DNA from: a virus
IMG/VR virus record: IMGVR_UViG_3300042344_000316
Location: 1 to 42,538 of that record
DNA length: 42,538 nt
Reading direction: 5' to 3' (one strand)
The notes under the pieces are model-generated. The model ran no database searches and had not been told where the DNA came from. It saw nothing but the letters and a program-made list of their open reading frames with translations. Positions 20,774 to 38,956 of this stretch are shown here, piece by piece. The translations under genes and the position numbers were made by a program. The first letter of the stretch is position 1. Every line of letters begins with the position of its first letter.

Positions 20774-20824
20774 TAAACAGTAGTAGTAAGAGCCGGGGCT
20801 TTATGGCCCCGGCTCTACTGTTTA
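20774..20824. terminator. Large hairpin directly downstream of the promoter (attenuator or terminator)
   Basis: An 11-bp GC-rich stem (AGAGCCGGGGC/GCCCCGGCTCT) with a six-base loop is enclosed by a second inverted repeat (TAAACAGTAG/CTACTGTTTA). On the plus strand it ends in TTTA, on the minus strand in an A/T-rich stretch, so it could end transcription both ways. Placed right after a good promoter, it suggests attenuation of the early operon or a short abundant RNA. Confidence 0.65.
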
Positions 20825-22765: not shown

Positions 22766-23548
22766 GTGAGAACACTTCACCGCTCAGTGCGGACCATTGA
22801 CCGTGGCGGAACGTCACTGCCCGTTCCGTTCCCGTCATGGGCTGACCGTGGCATCAGCATCCGTCGTGGCGAAGTGTCCATGATCGCTGGCCCACCAGGA
22901 GCCGGCAAGTCATCACTGGCATTGGCCATTGCCGTCGCAGCGAAAGTACCCACCTTGTACGTGTCGTGCGATTCGCACGAGTCCACGATGGCGCTGCGCA
23001 CGATAGCGATGCTGACTCGCACCTCGCAGAACGAGGTCGAGCAGTACATGGAGTCCGACCCCGATTGGGCCGCATCCGTGATTCGTGATCACGCATCCCA
23101 CATCAAGTGGATGTTTGACGCGTCACCGACTCTCAATGATCTTGAGGATGAGGTGAACACGTACCGGCTGGTAATGGGTGACAACCCTCAGCTTGTTGTC
23201 GTGGATAACGCTGTGGATATCACGCATGACAGTGGTGACGAGTTCTCGTCACTGCGGTCGCTGATGCGGGAAGTGAAGTGGTGGAGTCGCGACACGGGTG
23301 CAGCGTTCTTGATCCTGCATCACACGTCGGAGTCGTATCACGGTAACCCGTGCCCGCCTCGTGCCGCATTGCACGGAAAAATCGCACAGATCCCTTCACT
23401 GGTGCTGACACTTGCCAGTGAGCAGCCGGGGTTGATGGCGGTAGGTGCGGTCAAGAACCGTTACGGCCCCGCCGATGCGTCCGGTCAGACCGCCGTATGG
23501 CTGGACTACCACCCGTCAACGATGCAGCTAAAGGACATCGACGCATGA
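22766..23548 (+). CDS. RecA/DnaB-like ATPase (replicative helicase candidate)
   Basis: GTG start with AAAGGA upstream. The 260-residue protein is a RecA-fold ATPase: Walker A GPPGAGKSS (residues 42-50), a conserved LYVSCDSHES strand, Walker B LVVVDNAVD (Asp147), and a sensor region with LILHHTSES (about 187-195). It lacks the N-terminal domain of bacterial DnaB, as is common in compact phage helicases and KaiC-like proteins. It probably unwinds DNA at the fork or loads recombination factors, acting with the primase genes downstream. The stop overlaps the methyltransferase start. Confidence 0.82.
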   Translation: MRTLHRSVRTIDRGGTSLPVPFPSWADRGISIRRGEVSMIAGPPGAGKSSLALAIAVAAKVPTLYVSCDSHESTMALRTIAMLTRTSQNEVEQYMESDPDWAASVIRDHASHIKWMFDASPTLNDLEDEVNTYRLVMGDNPQLVVVDNAVDITHDSGDEFSSLRSLMREVKWWSRDTGAAFLILHHTSESYHGNPCPPRAALHGKIAQIPSLVLTLASEQPGLMAVGAVKNRYGPADASGQTAVWLDYHPSTMQLKDIDA

Positions 23549-24384
23549 GATTCGTGTCCCTGTTCGCGGGTGTTGGTGGGTTCGATCTCGGGTTTGAGCG
23601 TGCCGGGTGGGAATGCGCAGGCCAGGTAGAGATTGACAAGCATGCACGGGCAGTGCTGGAGAAGCATTGGCCTGACGTGCCCAAGCATGACGACGTGCGT
23701 ACCGCTAAGGAGTGGGCTGATGAGCGTGGACTCGTGGGAAACGTTGACCTTGTTTGTGGAGGATTCCCATGTCAGGACGTTTCCGTCGCAGGCAAGCGAG
23801 CTGGACTTGCCGGTGAGCGAACAGGTTTGTTCTGGGACGCACTCGCTTTCGCGAGCCATATCCAAGCGGGATGGGTCGTTCTGGAGAATGTGCCAGGACT
23901 TCTATCAAGCAACAGCGGACGCGATTTCGGAGTCGTCGTCTCTGCGCTGGCCGACGCAGGGTATAGCCACGTCGAGTGGCGGGTTCTGGATTCGCAGTTC
24001 TTCGGAGTCCCCCAACGTCGCCGTCGACTCTTCATTACAGCAGGTACTGGAGGACACAGTGGACGACCGGTACTTGTTGAGCGAGAAGGCGTGCGCTGGG
24101 ATCCTGCGCAGGGCGGAGCGTCGGGGTCGGACGCTGCCGGATCCGCTCAGGGAAGCGTTGCTAGCCGTCGCGTCGTAGCGGCTTTGACAACGAATGGTCT
24201 TGGTGGTGGCGGGCCTGACGACAATCTGGCGCAGGCTGGTCATCTAGTTCCTCTCTCTCTCTCTCTCGCCAACAGCAGCCGCATGCAGGAAGTGGCGAGC
24301 ACAGTGACGGTCGGGACGGGAGTCCGGTACGACCCGGACACGGAGTCGCTAGTCGTGCTCTCACGGACAGGTGTGGAACGTTGA
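23545..24384 (+). CDS. C5-cytosine DNA methyltransferase, N-terminal fragment (motifs I-VIII)
   Basis: Start at 23545 (MRFVSLF) overlaps the helicase stop (ATGA). Motif I (FAGVGGFDLG), II (VEID), IV with catalytic Cys76 (GGFPCQDVS), VI (ENVPG, Glu114) and VIII (QRRRRLFI, 157-164) are all present. Motifs IX and X are absent from this reading frame; they are encoded from 24580. After the (CT)8 tract and VTVGTGVRYDPD the frame ends in an unrelated tail (LSRTGVER). The expected continuation (SGGAHPGGFNGQDAYTG) is in another frame at about 24384-24449. This is either a broken gene, a phase-variable gene in the off state, or a two-subunit enzyme like M.AquI. Confidence 0.85.
   Translation: MRFVSLFAGVGGFDLGFERAGWECAGQVEIDKHARAVLEKHWPDVPKHDDVRTAKEWADERGLVGNVDLVCGGFPCQDVSVAGKRAGLAGERTGLFWDALAFASHIQAGWVVLENVPGLLSSNSGRDFGVVVSALADAGYSHVEWRVLDSQFFGVPQRRRRLFITAGTGGHSGRPVLVEREGVRWDPAQGGASGSDAAGSAQGSVASRRVVAALTTNGLGGGGPDDNLAQAGHLVPLSLSLANSSRMQEVASTVTVGTGVRYDPDTESLVVLSRTGVER
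24251..24267 (+). repeat. (CT)8 dinucleotide tract inside the methyltransferase gene
   Basis: Seventeen bases of alternating C and T (eight CT units plus C) in the target-recognition region, coding PLSLSLA. A slippage of one unit would shift the reading frame, so it is a possible on/off switch. It is one of two simple repeats in this gene. Confidence 0.8.
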
Positions 24385-24454
24385 GTGGCGGGGCTCATCC
24401 CGGTGGCTTCAACGGGCAGGACGCTTACACCGGCCAGCTCGTGGTGGTGTCGTG

Positions 24455-24583
24455 ATGTGTGAAGAGACGTGCATCAACTGCGGTAACGACATTGGGCCGC
24501 ATCATCTGTGCTCTGACTGCTTGGAGGAACTCGGTGCAGGCGTGGACAAAGTCGCGGCGTGCAATGAATGTGGACGACTATGA
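24455..24583 (+). CDS. Short zinc-finger ORF inside the methyltransferase locus, 42 aa
   Basis: Three CxxC pairs (CINC, CSDC, CNEC) in 42 residues predict a zinc knuckle. The first 26 codons look like an insertion into the methyltransferase gene; the last part, including CNEC, is read out of frame from sequence that in another frame encodes the methyltransferase segment TKSRRAMNVDDYETW. There is a weak upstream site only. It overlaps the start of the next fragment (ATGA at 24580). It may be a genuine small gene captured here or an accident of the insertion. Confidence 0.5.
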   Translation: MCEETCINCGNDIGPHHLCSDCLEELGAGVDKVAACNECGRL

Positions 24584-24960
24584 GACGTGGATTGAGGGGG
24601 GGGGTGTGCCCGACATTGAACGCTTTCGATAACGCTACGGAGACACGGGCAACAGTGGTCGCGTTCGGGATCACTGACGATGAGACAGCAGCGGAGGACT
24701 TGATGCCCACTATGCAGACCCCGTCGTCCGGTGGCGGTGGGCACCCACCCGCCGTTGTCATGGCATCCGTCCCGTCAGTACGCAGGCTCACCCCACGTGA
24801 ATGCGAACGCCTCCAAGGATTCCCCGACGACTGGACTGCCGGCCAGTCCGACAGTCAGCGTTACAAGCAGATGGGTAACGCCGTCACCGTCAACGTCGCC
24901 CACTACGTCGCGGCACTCATTGAAGCAAACACCAGCGTAGAGGTGTCCCATGCCCGGTGA
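24580..24960 (+). CDS. C5-cytosine DNA methyltransferase, C-terminal fragment (motifs IX-X)
   Basis: Encodes VCPTLNAFDNATETRAT, then motif IX (RRLTPRECERLQGFPDDW) and motif X (QMGNAVTVNV), the C-terminal third of a C5 methyltransferase. The natural upstream part (SRRAMNVDDYETWIEGG) is in frame 0 and would join this frame if the G9 run at 24596-24604 had one G fewer. As written, translation could start at ATG 24580, coupled to the zinc-finger stop. The sizes of the two fragments (279 and 126 aa) are close to those of natural two-chain C5 methyltransferases, so activity is possible. Confidence 0.75.
   Translation: MRRGLRGGVCPTLNAFDNATETRATVVAFGITDDETAAEDLMPTMQTPSSGGGGHPPAVVMASVPSVRRLTPRECERLQGFPDDWTAGQSDSQRYKQMGNAVTVNVAHYVAALIEANTSVEVSHAR
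24596..24604 (+). repeat. G9 homopolymer causing a frameshift in the methyltransferase
   Basis: Nine consecutive G. With nine, the upstream frame runs into GVPDIERFR and stops. With eight, it reads IEGGVCPTLNAFDN, the conserved sequence. Either phase variation or a homopolymer sequencing/assembly error. Confidence 0.85.
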
Positions 24961-25072: not shown

Positions 25073-25431
25073 GCGCATCAAACAAAGCGAAAGGTTCCCG
25101 TTGGGAGCGGGAACTTGAGGACTACCTGAACGCGTGCGGGGTGCACGCTCGACGCCTTCCCCGTGCAGGAGCGAAGGACATTGGTGACGTGTCTATCACG
25201 GTCGGTGATTTCGTGATCGTGGTTGAGGCGAAGAACGTGAAGACCGCTGACATGGCTGACTTCCTGCGGCAGGCGGATGTGGAGTCGGATCACTATGAGG
25301 CGAAGTATGGGGTGGCGACTGTCCCGGTGGTGGTGACGAAGACCAGGCAGAAGGGTGCCGGTGAGGGTCGCGTCACGATGACGGTGGACACGCTGCTGGA
25401 TCTACTGCGGTTAGCGGGGGCCGTGCGGTGA
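25069..25431 (+). CDS. Holliday-junction resolvase, Hjc-like
   Basis: GTG start at 25069 (MSASNKAKG) is preferred over an upstream in-frame ATG because of the GTGA overlap. The 120-residue protein has the PD-(D/E)XK pattern of Hjc-type resolvases: KGSRWERELEDYLNACG with Glu in helix 1, RLPRAGAKDIGDVSI (Asp), and FVIVVEAKNVKTA (Glu-x-Lys). It would cut four-way junctions and debranch DNA before packaging, complementing the Cas4/RecB-like nuclease. Confidence 0.87.
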   Translation: MSASNKAKGSRWERELEDYLNACGVHARRLPRAGAKDIGDVSITVGDFVIVVEAKNVKTADMADFLRQADVESDHYEAKYGVATVPVVVTKTRQKGAGEGRVTMTVDTLLDLLRLAGAVR

Positions 25432-25877
25432 CAAAGCTGTACTTGGTTCCACTAACGCAGCGACAAGCTCGTACGGCGTGCAGTGACTGGCATCGACACA
25501 ACCCACCTCCACGCGGCGACCTTTTTCGAGTCGGTGCAGCGGTGGACGGCGAACTCGTGGCCGTCGGCATAGCGGGTCGTCCCGTAGCTCGACACTTGGA
25601 CGACGGGCAAACCGTTGAAGTGACGCGGGTTGCCAGTTCGGGATACGACAATGCCACATCATTCTTGTACGCGGCGCTCCGTCGAGCAGCGTTCGCGTTG
25701 GGCTACAGCAGGATCATCACGTACACCCAAGCTGGCGAGACTGGAGCTAGCCTCCGAGCTGCCGGCTACCGGAAGGTAGCGGAACGCCCAGCGACAAAGG
25801 GATGGTCGCGTACTGCGCGCCCACGGGACGACGCCCTCTATCAAAGCGTTCAACGGACACTCTGGGAGGCGTCGTGA
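25428..25877 (+). CDS. GNAT-like acetyltransferase, XF1762 type
   Basis: GTG start coupled to the previous stop. Patterns WHRHNPPPRGDLFRVGA, VAVGIAGRPVARHLDDG, VEVTRVASSGYDNATSFLYA and FALGYSRIITYTQAGETG match the XF1762-type N-acetyltransferases common in phages, with an acetyl-CoA-binding region around the RVASSGYDNATSFLY segment. The substrate is unknown. Possible roles include modification of a host protein or a DNA base, but neither can be read from the sequence. Confidence 0.82.
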   Translation: MTKLYLVPLTQRQARTACSDWHRHNPPPRGDLFRVGAAVDGELVAVGIAGRPVARHLDDGQTVEVTRVASSGYDNATSFLYAALRRAAFALGYSRIITYTQAGETGASLRAAGYRKVAERPATKGWSRTARPRDDALYQSVQRTLWEAS

Positions 25878-28707: not shown

Positions 28708-29337
28708 CTACGGCCCGGTCCATGTGTGCCCTTCCAGATTCATGTTCAGGAACGGGTTCAGGCTGTAGATCCGCACACCGTACTGGTTCACGAGGGCGTG
28801 CTTGACGGCACGCAGATGCTGCTCCCACCGCCCCAGCCACATCATCGTGTCATCGTTCACAAGGTTGCCTGAGAAGTAGCCGTCCTGGTTTGCCTGCTGG
28901 TCAATCATCCCGCAGTCAGCACCGACAAGGATCACGTTCCTTGCCCCGAGAACGCACGCCAAATGCATGGATCCGTGCAGGCTGGTTGATCCCACGATCA
29001 GGCCACCGTCAGGAGGCCATGCTGTTTCCACGGTGAAGTCGTATCGGGTTGGCTGATGAGGGTAGTGGGTGACGTTCGGTAGATCGGTACGGCCAGGAGT
29101 GCCGGGGTGTCCTTGGTCCCCTTCCGGCACCCAGAACTGGTGCTGTGGATACTTCTCCGCCAGCGGGTACGTGTCATGCCACTGATAGTGGGAATGCGTG
29201 TGGACAGTGCAGTCCATGTCGTACAGGCCAAGTCGTTCACCGACACGGTTCGTGGCGATCACTGTCTTGCCGGTGAAGAAGCCGGGGTCAATGAAGGTGA
29301 GGCTCGGCCCTGAGCCGAGAACGTACATGTCGCTCAT
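28708..29337 (-). CDS. DUF115 / MptE-like protein, 209 aa
   Basis: Start at MSDMYVLG (29337) overlaps the glycosyltransferase stop; an upstream extension lacks support. The N-terminal YVLGSGPSL and later IVGSTSLHGSMHLACVLGA and VILVGADCGM match the nucleotide-binding pattern of the 6-hydroxymethylpterin-diphosphokinase-like (DUF115) family, which also includes proteins tied to sugar transfer onto surface structures. Paired with a glycosyltransferase, a role in glycan transfer or sugar-nucleotide handling is likely. It is the last gene of the leftward operon. Confidence 0.75.
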   Translation of the reverse strand: MSDMYVLGSGPSLTFIDPGFFTGKTVIATNRVGERLGLYDMDCTVHTHSHYQWHDTYPLAEKYPQHQFWVPEGDQGHPGTPGRTDLPNVTHYPHQPTRYDFTVETAWPPDGGLIVGSTSLHGSMHLACVLGARNVILVGADCGMIDQQANQDGYFSGNLVNDDTMMWLGRWEQHLRAVKHALVNQYGVRIYSLNPFLNMNLEGHTWTGP

Positions 29338-30428
29338 GCGACGTACGGCACGTTTGATGTGCGCACCGGCACCGTGCCGTCCCACTCATTGAACAACGCC
29401 ACCCATTCGTGTGCCGTGTTCACGATCGTGTGATCCTTCAAAGCTGCACGCATGTTGAGTCGTGCTTCTCGTTTCCTGGTCGTGTACTGCAGCAGCTCAG
29501 TCATGTGCTGCGCCCACTCGCCTGGTGTGCGGGCGATCCGCCCGACACCCATGCTGGCGATCCGCTCATACTCTGGAAGCGGGTCAGCGACGAACGGGAT
29601 CCCCGCTGCCGCATACTCGAGCCCTTTGATCGCGCTCTTGGCCCGGTTGAAGTCAATGTCTGCGAGCGGCACGATGCCGATATCGAAGGCGAGCATGTCC
29701 GCGTACCGGTTGATCGGCTGCATGCGCATGTGAAGCATGCGCTCCAGTGGTACACCGGTCAGTTCGTGGAATGCGGGTGCGTCCGGTTCGTGACCGGAAT
29801 GCAGGAACTCCAGATCATGCTCGTCAAGGAACTGTGGCAGCCAGGTACGTAGGTGTTCTAGATCGTTGGAGCGCCAGTTCGTGGCACCGGCCCACCCGAT
29901 CACGGGTTTCCGGTTCGTGTGCTTGAGCGGGGTGAACTGGTTCGGGTTGATGCCGTTACGGATCAGCCGCACATCCCTGGCGATGCCACTGTAGTAGTCG
30001 GCGAGGAACGGTGTCGTCACGGTGACCGTGTCCGCCTGCTGCACGATGGAACGCAGATGATCCCTGTTGTAGCCCCGGTTCCGGGCAGGATCCGTAAATG
30101 CTTTCGCCCGGTTCGCATCATGCAACCCATCGAAATGGTCATCGATGTCCACGATGATCCGCTGCCCGAGATCTTGAGCGACACGCATCTGGTTCGGGAT
30201 CTGCTTATGCATGATCATCTTGAACACGACCTGATCAAAACCGAACGTGGCGGTAGTGCCACTGGTGCGGACACCGAACCCGGCAGTCGGGGTGAATGCG
30301 ATCTTCCCAACGGTCGAGGCTCCACCGACCGTGTTCGCTGGCAGTAGACACCGGTAGTAGGTGCATCCACCAGGGATGAGGGTGCCTATGCCGGCGTAGT
30401 CCTCACTGCAGAATCCGACCCGTGTCAT
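29334..30428 (-). CDS. Glycosyltransferase, GT4-like, 364 aa
   Basis: Two Rossmann-like halves: the N-terminal half with DIDDHFDGLHDANR and a linker VTVTTPFLADYYSG, then LIRNGINPNQF and KPVIGWAGATNWRSNDL. The C-terminal half contains IGIVPLADIDFNRAKSAIKG followed by LEYAAAGIPFVA, the nucleotide-sugar binding signature of GT4 enzymes (the usual EAMA-like Glu is in KGLEYAA). It may glycosylate host surface polymers, altering superinfection, or modify virion or DNA. ATGA overlap at both ends places it in the leftward operon. Confidence 0.88.
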   Translation of the reverse strand: MTRVGFCSEDYAGIGTLIPGGCTYYRCLLPANTVGGASTVGKIAFTPTAGFGVRTSGTTATFGFDQVVFKMIMHKQIPNQMRVAQDLGQRIIVDIDDHFDGLHDANRAKAFTDPARNRGYNRDHLRSIVQQADTVTVTTPFLADYYSGIARDVRLIRNGINPNQFTPLKHTNRKPVIGWAGATNWRSNDLEHLRTWLPQFLDEHDLEFLHSGHEPDAPAFHELTGVPLERMLHMRMQPINRYADMLAFDIGIVPLADIDFNRAKSAIKGLEYAAAGIPFVADPLPEYERIASMGVGRIARTPGEWAQHMTELLQYTTRKREARLNMRAALKDHTIVNTAHEWVALFNEWDGTVPVRTSNVPYVA

Positions 30429-31119: not shown

Positions 31120-31298
31120 GACCGCTCCTCCCTCAACCAATCAACCTGAGCCTCAATCCACAACTCGTGCGCAACAAGCTCCAAGTCGTCACACGAGCAC
31201 TCACCTGGTGGCGTGTAGTAGTCACCCCACGAAGCGCAATCCGAGTAATGCTCATCACGCTGCACGACGCACCCCCATTGGCCGCGACTGTGGATCAT
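31110..31298 (-). CDS. Small protein, 62 aa
   Basis: ATG at 31298 (MIHSRGQW) lies inside the end of the upstream HTH gene; longer versions lack a binding site. Contains Cys residues at GCVVQRDEHYSDCAS and ECSCDD and a helical end rich in Trp and Glu. Possibly metal-binding. Overlaps the next start by ten bases. Confidence 0.58.
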   Translation of the reverse strand: MIHSRGQWGCVVQRDEHYSDCASWGDYYTPPGECSCDDLELVAHELWIEAQVDWLREERSCR

Positions 31299-31887
31299 CA
31301 ATGTCGTCCCACGCTGCAGCGGGTGCCCATCCGGCACGCTCAGCCTGCAACCGTGCACGCGAACTGCCACCCTGCATGTAGGCAAGCTCCGTGTACACGT
31401 CACGGATCAGTGCATCCATGTAGGCGCGTGTCTCCGGGTAACGTCCCCGGCGCACATCAGACAGGACAGTGGACGCGATACCGGTACGCCGTGACACGTC
31501 AGCCAGCGACCAGCCGGCACACGCCAACGCCTGCAACCGGCGACGTGCACCGGCACTCGACACAAGAGACCGGTCACTGGTGATCCGTGGCTGCACCGCC
31601 AGCAGGCGACCCAGTGTGGACACACGGATCCGGTCACGTCGAGTGATCCGATGCACGACCGTGCTTGACGAGTACCCCATCGCGTCAGCGATAGCCATCC
31701 ATGTCATGCCCTGCGACCGCAGCCAGCTCACATGCGCGTGAGCCCTGTCCGCAGACACGACACGCTTACGCCCACGTGCATGATCCAGACGCAGGCGCTT
31801 CTGATATGTGTTCGCGACCGTCGCACAGTCCACACACCTGCAGGCGTGCGTCTTGTACGTTGTCAACGTTCCATGATTGTTCAACAT
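31255..31887 (-). CDS. HTH DNA-binding protein, 210 aa
   Basis: The N-terminus has GTLTTYKTHACRCVDCATVA, a CxCxxC-type small metal site common in actinophage DNA-binding proteins. Two helix-turn-helix units follow: MTWMAIADAMGYSSSTVVHR (about residues 61-80) and GWSLADVSRRTGIASTVLSD. The tail is basic. It is likely a transcriptional regulator or a homing-type DNA binder; no nuclease motif is seen. Start overlaps the stop of the upstream gene. Confidence 0.75.
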   Translation of the reverse strand: MLNNHGTLTTYKTHACRCVDCATVANTYQKRLRLDHARGRKRVVSADRAHAHVSWLRSQGMTWMAIADAMGYSSSTVVHRITRRDRIRVSTLGRLLAVQPRITSDRSLVSSAGARRRLQALACAGWSLADVSRRTGIASTVLSDVRRGRYPETRAYMDALIRDVYTELAYMQGGSSRARLQAERAGWAPAAAWDDIDDPQSRPMGVRRAA

Positions 31888-35120: not shown

Positions 35121-35984
35121 TCATGGCATCCGGACGAAACCGGACGCGTCGCCGATAGCGTCACCCTTCGCGCGGAGTCCCACGATCACCCCGTGCGGGT
35201 CGGACGGGCGGAAATCCGTCACGTCACCATCGATAACAGGCATGCCATGCCACACGGTCGGTAGCTCTTGGCCGCGACGTGTCGCGAACGGCACGGCCAC
35301 GTTCCCATGCGCCAGCATGGCGCGAATATCCTCAACCGCGTGCGTTTCCTTCGCCGAATAGGTGAGATGGTATCCGTCCGGACGCGCGTCCCGGAGACGC
35401 GCCGGGAACGCGGTGTAATCGTAAAGTGTGACGCCACGGTGACGCGCCAGAGTCGCCACCATGACCGGCGTCGCCAGCTCCCAACGGATATCCGACACAC
35501 AATTCAACCGGATACCGATACGGCCACGCTTACGCACCGCGGCGCGAATCTCGTGCGCCAGGAGTACGCCCGATTCGAACGGGTGCACCACGAGGAAACC
35601 CATGCGCACCATGCGCGCGAAACGCACGTCATAGATGCCGCCCTTACCGGACGTATCCAGACACGCATCCGAGCATCCCCGCGTAGCAGCTGGACACGCG
35701 TTCCCCCACACCGACCGTGCCGGCGCAAGCATAAGCGTAAACGTCGGAACCTTATTCTTCCCCGTCTTCGGTTGCGCATCCGGTGGCGTAAACAACGGAC
35801 GTGCCTCCCTGGCGTAACCGAAACTTTCCCGATACTCCCCCAACGTCAACCGTGCCGCGCGCACCATGCGCGCACGCGCCACACGATTAGCCTTCCAATA
35901 CGCCACGAAACCGTGATCCACGGGAGCCAGCTCCCGCTCGAGCCTTGTCAAGCCGCGCACCGTGTCGCGAACCGTGGCGCTCAC
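35121..35984 (-). CDS. GP88-like protein, 287 aa
   Basis: GTG start coupled to the upstream gene. Central patterns include TFTLMLAPARSVWGNACPAA, TRGCSDACLDTSGKGG, VRMGFLVVHPFESG, IRLNCVSDIRWE and TLYDYTAFPAR, then YHLTYSAKE. This matches my knowledge of the actinophage gene-product-88 family, which has a cluster of cysteines near the start (ACPAATRGCSDAC) and a barrel-like pattern of strands resembling radical SAM proteins without the canonical CxxxCxxC motif. The activity is unknown. Confidence 0.78.
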   Translation of the reverse strand: MSATVRDTVRGLTRLERELAPVDHGFVAYWKANRVARARMVRAARLTLGEYRESFGYAREARPLFTPPDAQPKTGKNKVPTFTLMLAPARSVWGNACPAATRGCSDACLDTSGKGGIYDVRFARMVRMGFLVVHPFESGVLLAHEIRAAVRKRGRIGIRLNCVSDIRWELATPVMVATLARHRGVTLYDYTAFPARLRDARPDGYHLTYSAKETHAVEDIRAMLAHGNVAVPFATRRGQELPTVWHGMPVIDGDVTDFRPSDPHGVIVGLRAKGDAIGDASGFVRMP

Positions 35985-36238
35985 GCGGCACCGCCCAACG
36001 GTGCCACGATCCTACGCAAGGCCGTAGCAATATGAGCCGCCGCGGGGTCGGCAGAATCGACCAGAACCTCATACCCGCGACAGGCAAAGAAAAGATCCCA
36101 CCGGTAACGGGTGTCAAGGTCGCGCACAAGATGCGCACGAACAAAGTCACCACGCCGATACCGTTCCCGTAAATCTGGCGTGTCGAGCGCGGCCACACGC
36201 TCCCGCAACGCCTCAAATGATGCCGGGTCAATACGCAT
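35981..36238 (-). CDS. Small protein paired with GP88, 85 aa
   Basis: ATG at 36238 with GGAAGG eight bases upstream; a GTG three codons earlier is possible. Helical and charged, with the segment LRERYRRGDFVRAHLVRDLD and RYRWDLFFACRGYEV. It is the first gene of the leftward accessory operon and overlaps the GP88-like gene by four bases, so the two may work together. No family recognised. Confidence 0.68.
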   Translation of the reverse strand: MRIDPASFEALRERVAALDTPDLRERYRRGDFVRAHLVRDLDTRYRWDLFFACRGYEVLVDSADPAAAHIATALRRIVAPLGGAA

Positions 36239-36302
36239 ACCTGCCACCTTCCATCTATCTGCGGCACCGTGCCGCTAAAACGATACTGACAGAAGAGGAC
36301 GG

Positions 36303-36554: not shown

Positions 36555-36724
36555 CAGGCTTGACCCGGGGCATGTTTGCGACGTCGCCGCCTATGTATAC
36601 GTCATCCCTCTGTGGTTTTGCGTGGTATTCCCTTGCCTGGTGGAGCTACGGTGCGGTGTACTGGATTGTCCGGTTTTGACCCGGTATTTTGTGTGATCTC
36701 TGTCTCATTTTTGAAAATCGTGTC

Positions 36725-36733
36725 TTATCCACA
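36725..36733 (+). promoter_or_regulatory. DnaA box TTATCCACA (perfect)
   Basis: Perfect match to the consensus 9-mer for DnaA. A TTGACA (36740-36745) and the A/T-rich TATATTTATAG follow within 30 bases. Confidence 0.6.
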
Positions 36734-36762
36734 GGTGTTTTGACAGGAAGTATATTTATAGA

Positions 36763-36987
36763 GGCTACTTACGTAGCCGCCCCCCTGTGTGCGTTGGGGG
36801 CGGCCCTACTGCCAGCCCCCTTTGAGGGGGGCTGGCTACGGTACTTCGCACCGCCCCTTTGAGGGGGCGGTGCTCAGTACTACTACTGGTAGTTGGTTTG
36901 TGGATAACCACTGTGCAACCCCTTGTGGGGGTTGCTACGGGTACCCCTTGTTTTGACGGTTGCTGCCCCTGCTGTTGCCGGGGCAGC
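36763..36987. repeat. Run of six hairpins, five GC-rich
   Basis: In order: GGCTAC/GTAGCC (36763-36778), GCCGCCCCC/GGGGGCGGC (36776-36804), GCCAGCCCCC/GGGGGCTGGC (36811-36836), GCACCGCCCC/GGGGCGGTGC (36848-36873, with an outer GTACT/AGTAC), GCAACCCC/GGGGTTGC (36915-36935) and GCTGCCCC/GGGGCAGC (36962-36987). All stems are perfect. The third and fourth share the loop TTTGAG, so at least two arose from a common unit. No T runs follow, so they are not ordinary terminators. Confidence 0.8.
36899..36907 (-). promoter_or_regulatory. DnaA box TTATCCACA on the minus strand (perfect)
   Basis: TGTGGATAA on the plus strand, an exact inverted copy of the box at 36725-36733, 165 bases away, with three of the GC hairpins between them. 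Confidence 0.6.
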
Positions 36988-37072
36988 TTTGCCCCCTCTT
37001 CTTCCTTCGCCAAGGCTCCCGTTGGTCGCCTTGGCTCATGGTTTCTTCTCCCCCGTCGTTCGGAGGTTCGTC

Positions 37073-38956
37073 GTGGCTGCTCCTGGCCGGAAGACGGATG
37101 AGACGAAGGTGGATGCTCAGCGTCGCTTTTTGAAGGCGTTGGGTGATGGCTTGTCGGTGCGGCGGGCGTTGGAGGAGATTGGGCGTTCGACTTCGACGTA
37201 TGAGCAGTGGCGTCGGGAGTCGGATGAGTTCCGGGATGCGGTTTCTCGGATTCGGGTGATGAACCAGTCGGGTAAGCATGCCCGGGGCGAGTTCATGGAG
37301 TTCCCGGAGTTCAGTGAGCGGTTTTTGGGGGCTCACGTGTTTCCGCATATGCAGAACGTGGTGGATCTGATTGAGGGCCGGGAGCCCAGCTGGGTGCATG
37401 CGGCGATGACGTGGCAGCCGGGTGACCGGGATCTGGTGATGGTGAACATGCCGCCGGAGCATGCGAAGACCACGTCGATCACGATCAACTATGTGACGTA
37501 TCGGATTGCGATGGATCCGAATGTCCGGGTGATTTTGATTTCTAAGACGGCGGATATGGCTCGGAAGATGCTGTATGCGATTAAGACGCGTCTGACGCAT
37601 CCGGCGTATGCGGAGATGATTGCGGCGTATGCGCCGACGGGTGGCTTTGATAAGGATTCTGAGGCGTGGAATCAGTCGATGATTTACGTGTCGGACAATG
37701 CTCGTGACTCGGGTGAGAAGGATCCGACGGTTCAGGCTTTGGGTATTCGGGGTCACGTGTATGGCGCTCGTGCTGATCTGATTGTGCTGGATGACTGCGT
37801 TGACTTGTCGAATGCGCATGAGTATGAGAAGCAGATTGACTGGGTTCAGTCTGAGGTGATCTCCCGTATTTCCAGTAACGGCTCGATGCTGGTGGTGGGG
37901 ACGCGTCTGGCTAGCAAGGATTTGTATTCGGAGCTGCGGGATGAGCACCGCTATCCGGATGAGACGAGCCCGTGGTCGTATTTGGCGATGCCGGCGGTGC
38001 TGGATTTCGCGGAGGACACGAAGGACTGGGTGACGTTGTGGCCGCGGTCGAATCAGCCGGAGCCTGGGGCTAAGGGCGGCCAGCTTGAGCCGGATGCGGA
38101 TGGGCTGTTCCCGAAGTGGGATGGGTCGCGGTTGGCGAAGAAGCGGGCGAGGGTGTCGGCCCGCGCCTGGAGCATGGTGTACATGCAGAAGCAGGTTGCT
38201 GACGATGCGGTGTTCTCCCCCGATGCGGTGAAAGCGTCCATCAACGGCAACCGGATGACCGGGGTGATGCCCCGCGGCATGGTGAATTGCCGCCCGGAGG
38301 GCATGGATGGCCTGATCATTGTGGCGGGACTTGACCCGGCCACGTCAGGGCATACGGCTGCGGTCGTGATCGGTTTGGATGTTCGCACGTCGAAGCGGTA
38401 TGTGCTGGATTTGTACAACAAGGCGGGCACTACCCCGGAGGGTATGCGGAATCTGATCCAGGAGTGGACGGACCGGTACGGGATCTGCGAGTGGCGGATT
38501 GAGAAGAACGGTTTCCAGGGCTTTCTGGTGCATGACCGGGAGATCAACCAGTACGCGACTGCCCGCGGAACGGTGATCCGCCCCCACTTCACGGGCTCCA
38601 ATAAGCATGACACGGATTTCGGTGTCGCGTCGATGACATCACTGTTCAACGGCTGGCAGGACAAGCAGCAGATGATCGAGCTGCCGTCCACGGCGATCAG
38701 CGAAGCAGCGAAGGCGTTTGTGGAGCAGCTTGTGACGTGGGCTCCGGATCTGCCGAAGGGCACGAAGACGGACCTTGTGATGGCGTTCTGGTTCGCCGAA
38801 CTGGCGTGCCGGGACCGGGTGATGATGCATTCGACGTATGCCCGCTCCCATGCGGGTTCCAGCATGTTCTTGACGCCGTGGGATAGGCGCAACCAGATGA
38901 CCGTGAACCTGCTCGACGCGGAGGCAATGCAGGCGTTTCGACCGATTGGGGCTTGA
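37073..38956 (+). CDS. terL: Terminase large subunit with N-terminal HTH-like region
   Basis: GTG at 37073 is chosen because GGAGG lies six bases upstream; the open frame extends 150 bases further into the hairpin region without support. ATPase domain: Walker A-like MPPEHAKTT (126-134) and Walker B LIVLDD (Asp240, Asp241). Nuclease domain, RNase H fold: Asp421 (AGLDPATSG), Glu477 (RIEKNGFQG) and Asp567 (KTDLVMAFWF). The first 65 residues (RRFLKALGDGLSVRRALEEI, YEQWRRESDEF) resemble the helix-turn-helix of small terminase subunits. No separate small subunit is seen, so this segment may recognise the packaging site next to the gene. It pumps DNA into procapsids. Confidence 0.93.
   Translation: MAAPGRKTDETKVDAQRRFLKALGDGLSVRRALEEIGRSTSTYEQWRRESDEFRDAVSRIRVMNQSGKHARGEFMEFPEFSERFLGAHVFPHMQNVVDLIEGREPSWVHAAMTWQPGDRDLVMVNMPPEHAKTTSITINYVTYRIAMDPNVRVILISKTADMARKMLYAIKTRLTHPAYAEMIAAYAPTGGFDKDSEAWNQSMIYVSDNARDSGEKDPTVQALGIRGHVYGARADLIVLDDCVDLSNAHEYEKQIDWVQSEVISRISSNGSMLVVGTRLASKDLYSELRDEHRYPDETSPWSYLAMPAVLDFAEDTKDWVTLWPRSNQPEPGAKGGQLEPDADGLFPKWDGSRLAKKRARVSARAWSMVYMQKQVADDAVFSPDAVKASINGNRMTGVMPRGMVNCRPEGMDGLIIVAGLDPATSGHTAAVVIGLDVRTSKRYVLDLYNKAGTTPEGMRNLIQEWTDRYGICEWRIEKNGFQGFLVHDREINQYATARGTVIRPHFTGSNKHDTDFGVASMTSLFNGWQDKQQMIELPSTAISEAAKAFVEQLVTWAPDLPKGTKTDLVMAFWFAELACRDRVMMHSTYARSHAGSSMFLTPWDRRNQMTVNLLDAEAMQAFRPIGA

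Follow-up and report, generated by a model that had tools for sequence, protein, structure and literature searches.

A probable late-gene control region with a conserved CRP-like site and a hairpin-rich leader upstream of the terminase gene in a relative of Streptomyces cluster BF phages

The stretch of DNA analysed here, hereafter the window, is the complete 42,538-base viral record IMGVR_UViG_3300042344_000316. The terminase gene that the initial annotation had placed after a row of stem-loops is confirmed as that of the large subunit (TerL), the first gene of the late operon (Table 1); its best start is a GTG preceded by GGAGG, and the portal gene follows. A divergent, leftward gene lies at 35981 to 36247, and the 825 bp between it and TerL are non-coding as far as seen. 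The two ends of the record repeat each other over 127 bp, which we rejected as a physical direct terminal repeat (DTR) because a repeat of this kind, likewise found in L030 and L165 (127 and 123 bp), is likely an assembler overlap, the usual remnant on a circular contig, and hence uninformative on the physical ends. TerL searches matched 219 loci, from which 78 non-redundant upstream regions were retained for comparison. The nearest isolates are the Streptomyces cluster BF phages (Beephvirinae) with TerL identities of 46 to 48%, compared with 80 to 88% for L003 and L004 and 99% for L002. A genome scan did not find the host, and the phage is probably lytic, podovirus-type and related to cluster BF; podovirus morphology and a 265-bp DTR have been published for Destructrice (PMC13097060). 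Other genes in the window include a C-5 cytosine methylase in two frames (23497 to 24960; N-terminal part 23497 to 24384, C-terminal part 24568 to 24960), which is either split or broken, a Mom-like DNA modification protein (25428 to 25877; phrog_1384), and a leftward glycosyltransferase-like gene (28708 to 30428) adjoining a weak sialyltransferase-family match.

Table 1. Observed and predicted features between the predicted genome end and the terminase gene (positions in the window)
Feature	Position	Strand	Basis or remark
Predicted DTR right edge, TTGACCC...TATGTATACG	36560..36602	+	homology to Streptomyces cluster BF phages
CRP-like operator (predicted) TGTGATCTCTGTCTCA, one mismatch to TGTGA-N6-TCACA	36692..36707	.	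motif match, relatives
GTGTC...GACA dyad in promoter, possible operator	36720..36747	.	counterpart of relatives' GTGTCC...GGACAC
DnaA box TTATCCACA	36725..36733	+	exact match; overlaps putative -35 (36728-36733)
Predicted late promoter: weak -35 TCCACA, -10 TATATT (36751-36756), start ~36763	36728..36762	+	TATA element after CRP-like site kept in relatives
Predicted 5' leader of late (terL) mRNA, full of GC-rich hairpins	36763..37072	+	position, hairpin density
Hairpin 1, GGCTAC TTAC GTAGCC, 6 bp	36763..36778	+	at predicted transcript 5' end
Hairpin 2, arms 9 bp	36776..36804	+	
Hairpin 3, arms 10 bp, loop TTTGAG	36811..36836	+	
Hairpin 4, arms 10 bp, loop TTTGAG	36848..36873	+	
DnaA box TTATCCACA, inverted, within leader	36899..36907	-	exact match
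Hairpin 5, arms 8 bp	36915..36935	+	inverted as a whole in L002
Hairpin 6, arms 8 bp	36962..36987	+	overlaps terminator-like hairpin 36980-36995
Hairpin 7, arms 8 bp	37009..37035	+	
Terminase large subunit (TerL), first late-operon gene	37073..38956	+	phrog_38, E 3.2e-66

The strongest conserved DNA element of the region is a CRP-like site, which was absent from the initial annotation. TGTGA-N6-TCACA is found within one mismatch upstream of TerL in 62 of the 78 genomes versus 1.4 in shuffles, and without mismatch in 35 of the 78, L003 and L004 also having exact copies. Exact sites number 39 in 66 kb upstream of TerL versus 19 in 710 kb elsewhere (shuffles 0.07), and two control patterns with letters or spacing altered gave zero matches. 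Of 13 exact sites in 24 records scanned from end to end, 10 fall in the ~0.5 kb upstream of TerL. In the TerL loci, outside copies occur ~1 to 3.5 kb upstream of the gene, among early genes (L069, L104, L118, L179 and L217). The most frequent arrangement has the promoter TATA starting 52 bases after the first base of the site, the centre of which is then ~57 to 62 bp before the predicted start (~63 in the window). Class I CRP-dependent promoters have their CRP site centred at about such a distance before the start, and the likeness extends to a TGTGA-N6-TCACA centred ~57 to 64 bp upstream, with the difference that here it stands in the late regions of lytic phages and its operator role is predicted. 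No phage-encoded cNMP-binding protein was found, so that a phage-encoded CRP was rejected as the ligand and a host protein is the likely one. An 11-bp direct repeat upstream of the promoter, GTNAC-N6-GTNAC, was dropped as a candidate element since most relatives have the TGTGA-N6-TCACA dyad; in the close relatives L010, L012 and L019 a GTAAC-type direct repeat with an 11-bp step replaces the CRP-like dyad at this position.

The A/T-rich stretch noted earlier beside the stems (~36683 to 36760, up to 70% A+T in 30 bp) is best read as the promoter of the late operon, with an activity predicted from its motifs and their conservation. The window has the succession of BF-type late promoters, from CRP-like site to TATA-type promoter, hairpin leader and TerL. 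A phrog_1590 protein with helix-turn-helix matches (31255 to 31887) is a candidate phage regulator for the GTGTC...GACA dyad.

All six perfect stem-loops previously described in 225 bases are present between 36763 and 36987, the first two overlapping by 3 bases and two sharing the loop TTTGAG, and we found a seventh that was missing from that list (hairpin 7). Hairpins with arms of at least 8 bp number 22 in the whole window and six in the 316-bp leader, versus 0.044 in shuffles (maximum 1). Among the relatives, the 300 bp immediately before TerL contain 0.44 to 0.59 hairpins per 100 bp, compared with 0.03 in the 100 bp further upstream and mostly 0 to 0.03 within TerL; 25 of the 78 lack a strong hairpin in the final 330 bp before the gene. 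The first stem begins 0 to 8 nt past the -10 in 32 of the 40 relatives with a located promoter versus 6 of 40 after one mononucleotide shuffle each, although the 40 promoters are not independent because many come from related phages with one common hairpin type. In the window it begins exactly at the predicted start. Comparison by eye with L004 revealed stems that differ in sequence with their pairing kept (GCCGCCCCC/GGGGGCGGC and GCGGCCCCC/GGGGGCCGC; GCAACCCC/GGGGTTGC and GCTGACCCC/GGGGTCAGC). Between the window and L002 the whole of hairpin 5 is inverted, despite TerL being 99% identical. Neither mismatch type (9 G.T to 8 A.C) nor folding (z -3.47 sense, -3.43 antisense) indicated a strand preference of the stems, and no Rfam match was found at the gathering threshold. 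With the first of them at the predicted 5' end of the transcript and the others occupying the leader of TerL, the hairpins are best interpreted as the 5' leader of the late operon, leader RNA fitting better than origin or pac DNA; position favours RNA, while the strand tests are neutral between RNA and a role at the DNA level.

If transcribed, the hairpins could alternatively form an attenuator, that is, terminators without U-runs that block transcription in the absence of a phage antiterminator, in the manner of the lambda late promoter. GC-rich stems immediately after the promoter would suit this role, as would the overlapping alternatives formed by hairpin 6 and the stem at 36980 to 36995, the latter followed by CTCTTCTTCC, and the length of the late operon, estimated at ~26 kb (37073 round the circle to ~20.7 kb). 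However, a T-run is missing after most stems, no antiterminator gene was recognised, and the overlapping pair, weakened in L002 and not retained in L003 or L004, was rejected as a conserved attenuator, making this alternative rather unlikely in our estimation. A strong 11-bp hairpin at 20789 to 20816 (AGAGCCGGGGC-TTTATG-GCCCCGGCTCT), located between the late and replication genes, likely marks the end of the late operon. In put-type antitermination the leader RNA itself renders RNA polymerase resistant to terminators, no phage protein being needed. The put RNA of HK022, which is ~70 nt long with two stems and acts in early transcription, likewise forms stem-loops shortly after a promoter, in a phage leader with a long operon behind it (PMC9378689), whereas here six or seven stems precede a late operon.

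On the other side of the promoter lies the predicted genome end. The DTR of BF phages ends ~40 bp past a GACCC...GTTGTTAA motif, and by homology we predict an edge at ~36602 in the window, the ends of which are invisible because the assembly is circular. The DTRs in the records of WRightOn, Manuel, FlowerPower and Immanuel3 are 264, 276, 253 and 275 bp long, respectively, and a 253-bp repeat has been published for FlowerPower and relatives (PMC9753666); the record of Abafar opened elsewhere (396 bp shared) and was left out of edge placement. A GACCC...GTT/TTAA motif, spotted by eye and then counted with a loose pattern and no shuffle baseline, is present in 53 of the 78 relatives. From the DTR edge, BF phages continue with one or two TGTGA-N6-TCACA-like sites, an TATATATA promoter, hairpins and TerL, and the environmental relatives have the same order. 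The terminal and late-promoter region of the four BF phages thus resembles that of the window in its GACCC...TTAA element, CRP-like site, TATATATA promoter, hairpins and their order before TerL, but has fewer hairpins, lacks DnaA-like boxes over its initial 900 bp, and contains a DTR that is known rather than predicted.

This layout bears on the earlier suggestion of a pac site or combined element at 36725 to 36987, which stands insofar as a predicted end lies nearby; since that end, like the DTR edge of BF phages, is placed upstream of the promoter and outside the interval, the packaging reading was probably off by one to a few hundred bases. Were the hairpins themselves a pac site or a terminal DNA structure, the terminase would recognise or cut within the hairpin row, a proposal in keeping with stems that stand directly before its gene and are equally good on both strands, and with some contigs ending near them. 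We regard it as very unlikely given the location of the BF edge upstream of the late promoter, the matching edge motif in the window, and the scatter of the contig ends, which may be assembly breaks. Clustering of contig ends upstream of TerL was for its part rejected as proof of a DTR, as they fall at differing positions and assemblies can break at hairpins.

The two perfect inverted DnaA boxes reported in the initial annotation are exact copies of TTATCCACA, 165 bp apart; the window has no further exact copies, and allowing one mismatch adds no third box in the region. Dinucleotide shuffling of the 825-bp intergenic region, in 20,000 trials, yielded 0.0044 boxes on average and never two. Across the relatives, exact boxes are enriched 27-fold upstream of TerL (19 in 66 kb versus 7 in 710 kb elsewhere, with 0.6 in shuffles) and occur there in 11 of the 78 genomes; the window was picked for having such boxes, and leaving it out gives 17 in ~65 kb, still a ~24-fold enrichment. 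Clusters of at least three boxes within 100 bp occur five times upstream of TerL and never in 710 kb elsewhere. L012, L018, L054, L096 and L152 carry arrays of 3 to 7 boxes in non-coding DNA before TerL, often in 11-bp steps, for example five in L012, spaced in steps of exactly 11 bp immediately before the edge motif (-482 to -438 from TerL), and seven in L096 (-783 to -704). Clustered DnaA boxes typify DnaA-dependent origins such as P1 oriR, which the arrays of these five relatives resemble in their TTATCCACA-type boxes, whereas the window itself has two distant boxes only. A role of host DnaA in this region is plausible.

For the window phage itself, a host-DnaA-dependent origin, as proposed initially, would have DnaA bind the boxes, the A/T-rich DNA melt and the phage helicase be loaded, with the hairpins assisting priming or being incidental. 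The enrichment and the arrays speak for this, together with a DnaB-like helicase and a Toprim primase encoded in the window, where no polymerase or DnaA was recognised. The window also encodes a RusA-like resolvase and an exonuclease. The DnaB-like helicase is present in all six genomes considered (the window, four relatives and WRightOn), in which neither a polymerase of family A, B or III-alpha nor DnaA was recognised; such a gene set is consistent with reliance on host replication proteins without indicating where an origin lies. Conservation in relatives, suggested as a check, holds for the overall layout and the hairpins in many of them but not for the DnaA boxes, which vary in position and are lacking upstream of TerL in L003 and L004, in the four BF phages and in the corresponding region of Abafar. 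Only 5 of 20 exact boxes fall upstream of TerL in the 24 records scanned whole, and the A/T-rich DNA is accounted for by the conserved promoter. The GC skew does switch sign near 36.3 to 36.6 kb as the origin proposal anticipated, but gene direction switches at the same place, so that skew cannot tell an origin from a divergent promoter region and was rejected as origin evidence. The left DnaA box overlaps the only sigma-70-like -35 found, making a regulatory role as possible as an origin. With two boxes so far apart, an origin is a possible but weakly supported reading in this phage, and we think it rather unlikely.

We consider it likely that the region serves late-gene control, being composed of a predicted DTR edge, a putative CRP-family operator, a predicted activator-type promoter, a 310-nt hairpin leader and TerL. 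From the layout, conservation and enrichment seen by comparison we infer the DTR end, promoter activity, protein binding and every functional step of the following model. A host CRP-family protein would activate the late promoter via the CRP-like operator, perhaps assisted by a phage regulator at the GTGTC...GACA dyad. RNA would start at ~36763 and its leader fold into a row of GC-rich hairpins before the terminase. Beginning at the first bases of the RNA, these hairpins would protect the 5' end of the long late transcript, and they may bring RNA polymerase into a controlled state of elongation. Some members would keep the DnaA boxes in the region as host-DnaA sites, at which DnaA may contribute to replication initiation near the genome end or else modulate the promoter, one box overlapping its -35. 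A bolder version, which we hold to be quite improbable, is that a large group of phages has its late switch wired to a host CRP-family protein (and to host DnaA in some lineages) in one compact region beside the genome end, the hairpin-array leader producing a termination-resistant polymerase along the ~26-kb operon. Our literature search found no direct precedent for this combination, which does not prove that none exists.

The proposed arrangement provides a testable anatomy for late-gene switch-on in a wide group of little-studied phages. Given a CRP-like site at the late promoter of most members, the nutrient state of the host could set the timing of lysis, and the concentration of host-regulator sites across related phages suggests more generally that the host may help time infection. 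DnaA-box arrays near the predicted genome end of some members offer a handle on host-DnaA use by phages with no recognised polymerase, and the hairpin leader is a candidate for a phage RNA that protects mRNA or controls elongation.
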